This document shows, one piece after another, positions 35,214 through 63,138 of a stretch of DNA of 64,000 nucleotides (within the stretch, counting starts at the first letter, position 1; each line of letters starts with the position of its first letter). This stretch comes from Afipia massiliensis. Its GTDB lineage: Bacteria > Pseudomonadota > Alphaproteobacteria > Rhizobiales > Xanthobacteraceae. Made by a program: the position numbers and the translations under genes. The notes under the pieces were generated by a model. The model was not told the origin of the DNA, searched no databases, and was given only the letters and a program-made list of their open reading frames with translations. The stretch covers positions 434,001 to 498,000 of the forward strand of contig NZ_JACHIJ010000003.1 of NCBI RefSeq assembly GCF_014203115.1. Reading direction: 5' to 3'.

Positions 35214-35963
35214 CTAGTGTCCCGGATGGAGCGCGTCGTTGAGGTACATGCAGGTCAGCATGGTGAACACGTAGGCCTGAATGACGGACATCAGGAGTTC
35301 CAGCGCGGTCAGGGCCAGGACCATCAGAAACGGCATCGCCGCTCCGAGTATACCCAGTGTCCCGAGACCGCCGAGACCGACGACGAAACTCGCGAACACC
35401 TTCAGCGTGATATGCCCCGCGAGCATCACCGCGAACAGGCGCACGGAGTGCGACACCGGCCGCGACAGATAGGAAATCACTTCAATCGGGACGATGAACA
35501 CCGCGATGTACGGCGGAACGCCCGACGGCAGGAACAGCCGCAGGAAGCCGAAACCGTTGCGCATCACGCCGTAGATGGTGACCGTTAGAAACACCATCAT
35601 CGCCAACGCAAAGGTCACACTGAGGTGGCTGGTGACGGTGAATGCGTAGGGCAGCATGCCGAGCAGGTTCGCCACCAGAATGAAGGTGAACAGTGAAAAG
35701 ACCAGCGGGAAAAACCGCATTCCCTCGTCGCCGGCGTTTTCGCGCACTGTTTTTGCGACGAACTCGAACAGCAGCTCCGAAGCCGACTGCCATCGTCCCG
35801 GCACGAGCGCGCTTCGCCGCGTCGAAAGCAGCATGAAGAGGCCGATGATGCCGACCGTCACGAACATATAAACGGTCGAGTTGGTGATGCTGATCTGCTG
35901 TCCGGCGATCTCGCCGAGTTGCAGGATCGGCTTGATTTCGAACTGTTCAATCGGCCCGGCCAT
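35214..35963 (-). CDS. atpB: F0 ATP synthase subunit a, lone paralogue
   Basis: Product of 249 residues matching F0 subunit a throughout: [59 protein letters not shown], and the C-terminal [21 protein letters not shown]. The essential Arg (E. coli R210) is present at ~175. The Asn four residues later (E. coli N214) is replaced by Val (RLFAVML). No atpI, atpE or atpF gene is adjacent, so this is not the standard F0 operon. ATG at 35963 has AGGGG upstream. An ACGR two-hairpin leader lies 107 nt upstream; sugE follows 94 nt downstream. Confidence 0.88.
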
Positions 35964-36069
35964 GATGCCCCTGTCGCATGCAAAAGCAATCGCATCCGAT
36001 GGCACGGAGCGATCCTGAACGGAGCATGATGAGGGGAAGGCTTCCTACCCGGAGCGGCCGTCCCGACAT

Positions 36070-36130
36070 CTCTCCAAGAGATGTGGGGCCGTCCCCGACG
36101 AAAGCTGAAGCAGTACGAGTCGTCCCGTAC
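36070..36130 (-). promoter_or_regulatory. Candidate guanidine-II (mini-ykkC) riboswitch upstream of atpB
   Basis: On the minus strand P1 at 36113-36130 is GTACGGG-ACGA-CTCGTAC (7 bp, one G-U pair, ACGA tetraloop). A 16-nt linker leads to P2 at 36085-36096, GGGG-ACGG-CCCC. A GGAGAG hexamer (36070-36075) follows 9 nt after P2, as in the sugE leader, but sits in a small hairpin and has no start codon at a good distance. Both loops are canonical ACGR. The next gene is the orphan atpB, 107 nt further on, so the true target is uncertain; the original gene may have been lost. Confidence 0.7.
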
Positions 36131-62779: not shown

Positions 62780-63138
62780 ACGCAGGAAACCGGGAAACGC
62801 AGGTTCCGAGCAATTGCAAAGGAACCGTAAAGGGAATCGTTCATTTACGGCGTATTAAGCTTTCGGGTTTATGACTTTGATTGTCCTTGTTTGGACACCG
62901 AGTGGCTCCTGTCCACTCTGTTTGACGCCTCCCTGTTATCAACTTTCAAAAGCCGCCGGAAACGGCGGCTCTTTTTTGTCCGCTGCGTTAATCTTTGCGG
63001 GCCCGTTTTGCCGCGTGCGGCATCCCGTTGGAAACCATATCTCCTCATTGTTATCGCAAGTGGCTGGACTCCCGGCTGCGGGCGCGCAATCATTTGTTCA
63101 TCATAAAAAAATCAGCGTAACCGCGTGAGGCGTTAACC
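62780..63138. other. Intergenic region between DUF1192 and rcdA
   Basis: These 359 bases hold the sRNA/terminator structure at 62882-62977 and the rcdA promoter region downstream of it. GCGTTAACC stands near the rcdA start but no full CtrA site (TTAA-N7-TTAAC) is seen. No convincing protein gene. Confidence 0.5.
62882..62977 (+). ncRNA. Candidate small RNA ending in a strong terminator
   Basis: Three hairpins follow each other: TGTCC/GGACA (62882-62897), GAGTGG/CCACTC (62900-62918), then AGCCGCCG-GAAA-CGGCGGCT (62951-62970, 8 bp with a GNRA loop) and TTTTTT. The last is a clear intrinsic terminator. It may simply end the DUF1192 transcript, but the two upstream hairpins and 100-nt distance from the stop suggest an independent or processed small RNA. 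No firm promoter is seen. Confidence 0.45.

Follow-up and report, generated by a model that had tools for sequence, protein, structure and literature searches.

A Guanidine-II riboswitch leader upstream of a variant ATP synthase subunit a gene in Afipia massiliensis and related Rhizobiales

The leader, the orphan atpB gene and the gene that follows

Within a stretch of 64,000 nucleotides from Afipia massiliensis (hereafter the window), we examined an atpB variant lying outside any F0 operon, with a gdx-type gene and a gene encoding a tRNA-editing domain as its neighbours. Read along the minus strand, the locus presents a promoter-like pair, an aptamer, a hairpin, the atpB variant, a second Guanidine-II-like leader and gdx, with the following features:

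36168-36141, minus strand: promoter-like pair, TTGAAA (36168-36163) and TTTAAG (36147-36142), found by eye
36131-36084, minus strand: Guanidine-II (mini-ykkC) aptamer, from a 33.2-bit match to RF01068 and covariation in 69 leaders, made up of P1 (36131-36112), a linker and P2 (about 36097-36084)
36130-36113, minus strand: P1 as drawn from the sequence, GTACGGG-ACGA-CTCGTAC
36112-36097, minus strand: 16-nt linker between the stems as drawn
36096-36085, minus strand: P2 as drawn from the sequence, GGGG-ACGG-CCCC
36084-36066, minus strand: hairpin ACATCTCT-TGG-AGAGATGT, directly after P2 and containing GGAGAG
35963-35214, minus strand: atpB paralogue encoding a variant F0 subunit a of 249 amino acids from an ATG start, PF00119 at 218.3 bits
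35187-35138, minus strand: second Guanidine-II-like leader, before gdx, RF01068 at 23.8 bits
35119-34799, minus strand: gdx/sugE-type SMR gene of 106 amino acids, PF00893 at 99.8 bits

A scan of the 64-kb window with all 4227 Rfam families placed RF01068 at 36131-36084 on the minus strand with 33.2 bits and an E-value of 0.0072, or 0.00015 when the first leader was searched in 1301 bases. Given that this score lies above the gathering threshold of 32, the match exceeds chance expectation, and it bears out an earlier sequence-only reading that had described a canonical guanidine-II-like two-hairpin leader here; the letters and coordinates which that reading gave for stems, loops, linker and GGAGAG are exact. 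Both tetraloops, ACGA in P1 and ACGG in P2, are of the ACGR type and closed by G-C pairs, in keeping with the pair of ACGR-loop stem-loops by which the class is defined (PMC5486947), and the 16-nt linker falls within the range of the class (mostly at least 13 nt). By its sequence, the minus-strand leader is a Guanidine-II riboswitch. The weak sigma-70-like promoter reported just before P1 was also recognized by eye and is largely preserved across five aligned leaders of the genus; as a weak match, it represents a putative promoter.

The next gene had been identified as an orphan copy of F0 subunit a, and the profile scores agree: its product, read from an in-frame GTG at 36005 upstream of the ATG, reached 218.3 bits with PF00119 (cut-off 33.9) and 363.5 bits with NF004482 (cut-off 225). 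It had also been stated that this next gene is not a guanidine gene, which is correct and leaves unmentioned the Gdx-type gene and the second Guanidine-II-like leader behind it. That second leader scores below gathering owing to a P1 with a five-base loop (AACGA), its P2 being canonical. The translation of the gdx-type gene contains all of the residues E13, W16, S42, Y59 and W62 named for Gdx (PMC7695847), and its best match among 22 models was the NCBIfam equivalog SugE, at 116.7 bits against a cut-off of 126; by resemblance its product is a guanidinium exporter.

The genome possesses two atpB loci, the main copy (C3:432061-432693) being located 37 kb from the window copy and encoding a protein 63% identical to it. 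A complete second F0 was considered and rejected, as the single c-subunit gene found in the genome (C3:431761-431949) lies beside the main atpB. Elsewhere in the genome, another SMR/gdx gene (L056, C2:399811-400116) has a weak Guanidine-II-like leader of 24.9 bits, and the plus strand of the window carries a BjrC1505 alphaproteobacterial sRNA at 62837-62978 (141.5 bits).

Conservation, covariation and form of the leader

Of the 29 genomes in the genus, to which A. birgiae (G020), the Afipia metagenome-assembled genome G018 and Afipia sp. OHSU_II-C1 (G015) belong, five show the order aptamer, atpB, leader, gdx. The leader of G013 scores 31.6 bits, slightly under gathering. Across the five genomes with this order the roughly 50 bases of the second leader are identical save for one inserted base, with atpB dS values reaching about 0.7; it scores 22 to 24 bits in four of them and in G015 is unlisted by score yet present in the alignment. 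The same four-part order also occurs in four genomes of a second genus, g26 (G236, G259, G275 and the Tardiphaga metagenome-assembled genome G320, locus L177), where both leaders exceed gathering (35.1 to 46.9 bits, with 35-42 bits for the leader before gdx), and a genome of a third genus (G072) possesses the aptamer and atpB with no adjoining gdx. Overall, the distribution of variant copies is patchy, such copies standing out in at least 10 of 391 genomes sampled across the family and at least 6 of 397 across the order. A class-wide sample of 337 genomes searched at E 1e-112, a strict limit that would miss divergent variants, returned the genome of the window only.

For a broader survey, ten proteins were aligned and two short peptides were used to search 84,980 species genomes, and the best 80 of 100 relatives, nearly all from Rhizobiales, were retained. 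Since these loci were found through protein peptides, they were not chosen for having a riboswitch. Among them are one Reyranella locus and one on a contig titled Bacillus subtilis SK6B4 (L157), which groups with Pseudochrobactrum and is probably from a mislabelled or mixed assembly. A Guanidine-II aptamer was identified within 310 nt upstream of the atpB variant in 76 of these best 80. Rfam alone detected 71 at gathering (19, 17, 15 and 20 of 20 each), and a model built from 69 of the leaders (R1), which is clade-tuned and may miss divergent Guanidine-II elements, recovered five of the remaining nine at 35.6 to 56.4 bits. The four loci without an aptamer are L141 of Shinella daejeonensis, the two Pseudochrobactrum loci L160 and L169, and the oddly titled L157.

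Ordinary atpB loci provided a counterpart to these results: R1 matched none of 63 (60 distinct proteins), with a best score of 9.7 bits. One of these, L054 (G028:C1:5357949-5358692), is an extra atpB of a different kind, at 57% identity, which keeps the ordinary residues and is not matched by R1. All five variants picked order-wide by profile score, two of which correspond to L170 and L175 and three of which are new, matched R1 at 39.4 to 55.7 bits. Furthermore, each of 18 variant-bearing genomes checked contains exactly two atpB genes, and 30 of the resulting 36 copies could be read at position 179 of the protein: R1 matched upstream of 16 of the 17 with valine and of none of the 13 with asparagine. 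The valine copies had already been counted, and many were used in building R1; the asparagine copies are new information.

Covariation was computed on 69 aligned leaders and compared with 500 shuffled and a series of slid alignments. The stem covariation score of 0.277 lies above that of all slid controls and was reached by none of the 500 shuffles (0.136 +/- 0.009); 91.9% of stem cells are paired, and 7 of the 13 base pairs show changes on both sides, a number reached by 16 of the 500 shuffles. Non-compensatory change in the stems of relatives, which would have counted against the riboswitch assignment, is thus not the pattern observed, although the outermost P1 pair is open in 44 of 53 sequences; the outermost P2 pair is open in 11 of 40. 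The ACG of both loops and the flanking G and C are invariant in the 69 leaders, which were chosen by their Rfam match.

These leaders occur in two forms, short, with the end of P2 16 to 25 nt before the start codon, and long, with a distance of 97 to 266 nt; the window leader belongs to the long form. In 22 of 27 short leaders, the minimum-energy fold pairs the 3' arm of P2 with the ribosome-binding region or the start, compared with 33% after shuffling of the bases downstream, a predicted arrangement resembling the on-switch suggested for the Guanidine-II class (PMC5486947). Most long leaders possess a hairpin right after P2 that is similar to the one in the window and stronger than in shuffles, with a stem of at least 5 bp in 49 of 57 against 37% of shuffles (one of these, L183, is actually short). 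In the window, GGAGAG (36075-36070, minus strand) is located nine bases past P2, as the sequence-only reading had it; because its bases belong to this hairpin's loop and 3' arm and the atpB ATG at 35963 is about 120 nt downstream of P2, the motif is unlikely to be the ribosome site of atpB.

Forced-aptamer folding, used to look for the expression platform, did not raise Shine-Dalgarno accessibility on average in either form: the mean moved from 0.37 to 0.41 in short leaders (up in 6 of 27, down in 3) and stayed at 0.37 in long ones (up in 10 of 57, down in 11), and folding of the window's long leader predicted no clear switch. Two candidate features were discarded. Downstream of P2 the window has a third GGGACGGCC motif, which decays in relatives (to GGGATAGTC in A. 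birgiae, G020), and a conserved leader peptide is not general to long leaders, given that the open reading frame varies from 3 to 48 codons across the five genomes of the genus. At L129, L170 (identical to L193), L172, L185, L187 and L194, a leader reading frame starting with ATG ends in a one-base overlap with the start of atpB, a hint that translation of the two may be coupled in some genera. Control of translation at a distance is described for a SAM-II riboswitch of Sinorhizobium (PMC9373788).

The genomic context of the 80 loci informs which gene the riboswitch serves. A gdx gene follows atpB on the same strand in 29 of these best 80 of 100 relatives, in some cases only about 25 nt on, and in 17 of the 29 it has its own second aptamer at gathering. 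In the other 51, the 3 kb downstream contain no gdx, and 47 of them retain the first aptamer. The gene that follows atpB at Ensifer loci encodes an ABC-3 permease and is convergent, and in Shinella and Aminobacter the next long reading frame, with no Pfam assignment or a weak one, is on the opposite strand. In addition, a scan of ten genomes with the clade-tuned R1 at E 0.001 returned a single site in five, each before atpB. Given the absence of nearby gdx in 51 loci and these sole sites, atpB is, on the comparative evidence, itself a target. The sequence-only reading had offered two possibilities. A relic riboswitch that has lost its original gene is contradicted by the conservation and by the 47 aptamer-bearing relatives lacking nearby gdx, whereas a guanidine-responsive RNA controlling an F0-like protein gains comparative support from the 76 pairings, the covariation and those same 47 loci, with the gene context as then described being incomplete.

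Further Guanidine-II elements were observed among Agrobacterium/Rhizobium-type relatives. Ten such loci also carry an element at gathering before a Na_Ca_ex-type antiporter gene, and five (L178, L179, L180, L184 and L189) have additional elements that precede both an extra mrpF in divergent orientation and the gene for a conserved small protein of 57 aa; at L180:763-2755 this cluster of mrpF, antiporter and 57-aa genes with its Guanidine-II elements lies beside the atpB variant. R1 matched before 5 of 5 extra mrpF genes and before none of 14 others found in these genomes or in two relatives, and the extra MrpF proteins have proline in 5 of 5 where all 14 others read have glutamate or aspartate. 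The idea that a key ion-path residue is lost here is weakened, as the D35-type aspartate is kept and the missing acid may, at a guess, be the equivalent of D59f, which is not universally conserved (PMC7419157). The extra mrpF may be a second case of a spare subunit under guanidine control in a proton-coupled machine, the importance of the substituted site being less certain.

Sequence features of the variant subunit a

Residue equivalences were mapped on E. coli AtpB for 95 variant entries, comprising the 80 loci and 15 entries found by overall similarity, of which seven coincide with the 80, giving 88 distinct loci. All 95 retain Arg175 (E. coli aR210) and Gln229 (aQ252), and the variants also keep His184 and Glu222, the a219/a245 pair, which is swapped likewise in the ordinary copies compared. 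Two positions separate the groups completely: position 179 (aN214), four residues after the essential Arg175, is valine in 95 of 95 variants and asparagine in 63 of 63 ordinary copies, and position 225 (a248) is methionine in 95 of 95 variants and valine or isoleucine in 63 of 63 ordinary copies. Nearly invariant differences are also found at positions 228 and 235. Valine 179 forms part of the search peptide FAVML[AG]GH, present in all 80 of the best 80 of 100 loci, so that at those loci it was selected by the search; methionine 225 was not. From their spacing, positions 222, 225 and 229 would lie on one helix face.

In E. coli, aN214 sits next to aR210 and aQ252, where the periplasmic inlet has its inner end (PMC9447477, PMC8754430). 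The position is reported to vary naturally in other organisms (PMC9447477), and loss of asparagine here consequently marks a subtype and does not exclude the protein from the family. Exchange of this residue for valine in E. coli is described, with reference to older work, as lowering ATP-coupled proton conductance while preserving growth on succinate (PMC11121307).

A tree built by a quick method from 68 variants and 60 ordinary copies, after removal of ten differing columns, places the variants on one side of a single branch (SH-aLRT 96). dN/dS values of 0.05-0.135 among six atpB copies, five from the genus and one from g26, correspond to purifying selection, and the variant is therefore maintained.

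A probable regulated alternative stator subunit and competing explanations

The best explanation, which we consider probable, is that the locus encodes a guanidine-induced alternative F0 stator subunit of the ATP synthase and is not a relic. That the subunit is a regulated alternative one is the firmest part of this reading and very likely correct; a specific benefit in tolerating guanidinium is held tentatively, at somewhat less than even confidence. The sequence-based parts are the aptamer, its conservation, the one-branch grouping, the substitutions and the purifying selection, while guanidine induction, incorporation into F0 and the benefit are what we infer. Guanidinium bound by the aptamer would cause the P1 and P2 loops to kiss, which would turn on translation of the paralogous subunit a and, at this locus, of Gdx also. 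The variant would then replace or compete with the housekeeping subunit a on the ordinary c-ring, which it must use given that the housekeeping c-subunit gene is the only one found. As a result, the inlet half-channel would be altered at two invariant points (valine at aN214 and methionine at a248), one helical turn from the essential Arg210 and from Gln252. Guanidinium shares its chemical group with the side chain of Arg210, and the likeliest benefit would be a proton inlet which free guanidinium cannot occupy or jam. Counted against the explanation as a whole are the four of the best 80 of 100 relatives without an aptamer near atpB and the patchy spread. Biguanides inhibit mitochondrial ATP synthase (PMC4148174), which speaks for the explanation; this effect was partly on F1, however, and biguanides are not guanidinium.

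The placement of aN214 and the literature on its valine mutant also allow a second reading of the benefit, in which the variant has a lower proton conductance and the slower inlet would spare proton-motive force for Gdx under guanidine. The conductance loss in the growth-competent E. coli mutant fits this at least as well as it fits a tolerant inlet; moreover, Gdx is reported to exchange two protons inward for each guanidinium outward (PMC9574504, PMC7695847), valine at 179 gives a less polar inlet, and methionine 225 is bulkier than valine. However, the variant occurs without linked gdx in 51 of the best 80 of 100 loci, a simpler route would be to express the main operon less, and a whole subunit differing by about 37% goes beyond what throttling needs. 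We regard the slower inlet as unlikely, if a serious contender, and weakly prefer the tolerant one.

A true riboswitch might instead control a paralogue whose role is unrelated to guanidine chemistry, for example in cation or pH stress, with guanidine serving as a proxy signal. The Guanidine-II elements before the Na_Ca_ex-type antiporter in ten Agrobacterium/Rhizobium-type loci, with extra MrpF in five, would accord with such a role, but the invariance of ACG in both loops of the 69 leaders, chosen as they were by Rfam match, suggests that guanidine sensing itself is selected, and we judge this explanation improbable. Least tenable, and very improbable, is that the riboswitch serves gdx, with atpB a hitchhiker between the two or the upstream copy a relic: gdx does follow atpB here and in 29 of the best 80 of 100 relatives, and emrE-type SMR genes are the commonest family reported with mini-ykkC (PMC2864571), but against this stand the 47 aptamer-bearing relatives without nearby gdx, the convergent neighbour in Ensifer, the second aptamers of gdx itself, the purifying selection on atpB and the five genomes whose only R1 site precedes it.

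Comparison with described systems places the guanidine-induced subunit among several partial parallels. Like Guanidine-II elements before gdx/sugE, the locus has a G+C-rich pair of ACGR hairpins with covarying stems, a linker and a gdx-type gene downstream, but its first gene is a paralogue of F0 subunit a and not an exporter or guanidine-degrading enzyme. Na+-I riboswitches, which are reported to act occasionally on the genes of ATP synthases driven by a Na+ gradient (PMC9971707), likewise tie ion sensing to such genes; they differ in that the ligand here would be guanidinium and the gene encodes just one stator subunit, a spare that exists alongside an ordinary ATP synthase. Other duplicate atpB genes share the extra copy, and the genome of the window has no second c-subunit gene that we found; the one such duplicate looked at in this group, L054 in genome G028, differs from the window copy in its ordinary residues and lack of an R1 match. 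The E. coli mutants aN214V and aN214L (PMC11121307, PMC8754430) show the same polar-to-hydrophobic change as laboratory alterations of the only copy, whereas here it is natural, invariant and paired with methionine at a248. An association between a guanidine riboswitch and ATP synthase was not found in the open-licence literature, where it could stand as an unremarked entry in a supplementary gene list, and the available text of PMC12186494, PMC7266159, PMC3766115, PMC2864571 and PMC7736828 holds no association of a guanidine riboswitch with atpB.

In its boldest form, the proposal would be that the proton inlet of ATP synthase is the main target of guanidine in these bacteria, with guanidinium entering the periplasmic half-channel and competing at the a/c interface, and that Rhizobiales have responded by evolving a guanidinium-proof replacement stator subunit under riboswitch control, joined in some Agrobacterium/Rhizobium by a spare MrpF subunit of the Mrp cation/proton antiporter, forming a guanidine-inducible replacement-part regulon for proton-translocating machines; we offer this as a speculative possibility, which is more doubtful than otherwise. 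Taken together, the findings suggest that Afipia massiliensis and related bacteria refit their ATP synthase when guanidine is present. If true, a riboswitch would swap a single stator subunit of the enzyme in response to a small cation, widening the guanidine regulon beyond export and degradation to take in bioenergetics. The natural role and toxicity of guanidine are poorly understood, and the F0 proton inlet would become a possible physiological target, an idea made directly testable by the conserved natural substitution pair next to Arg210.
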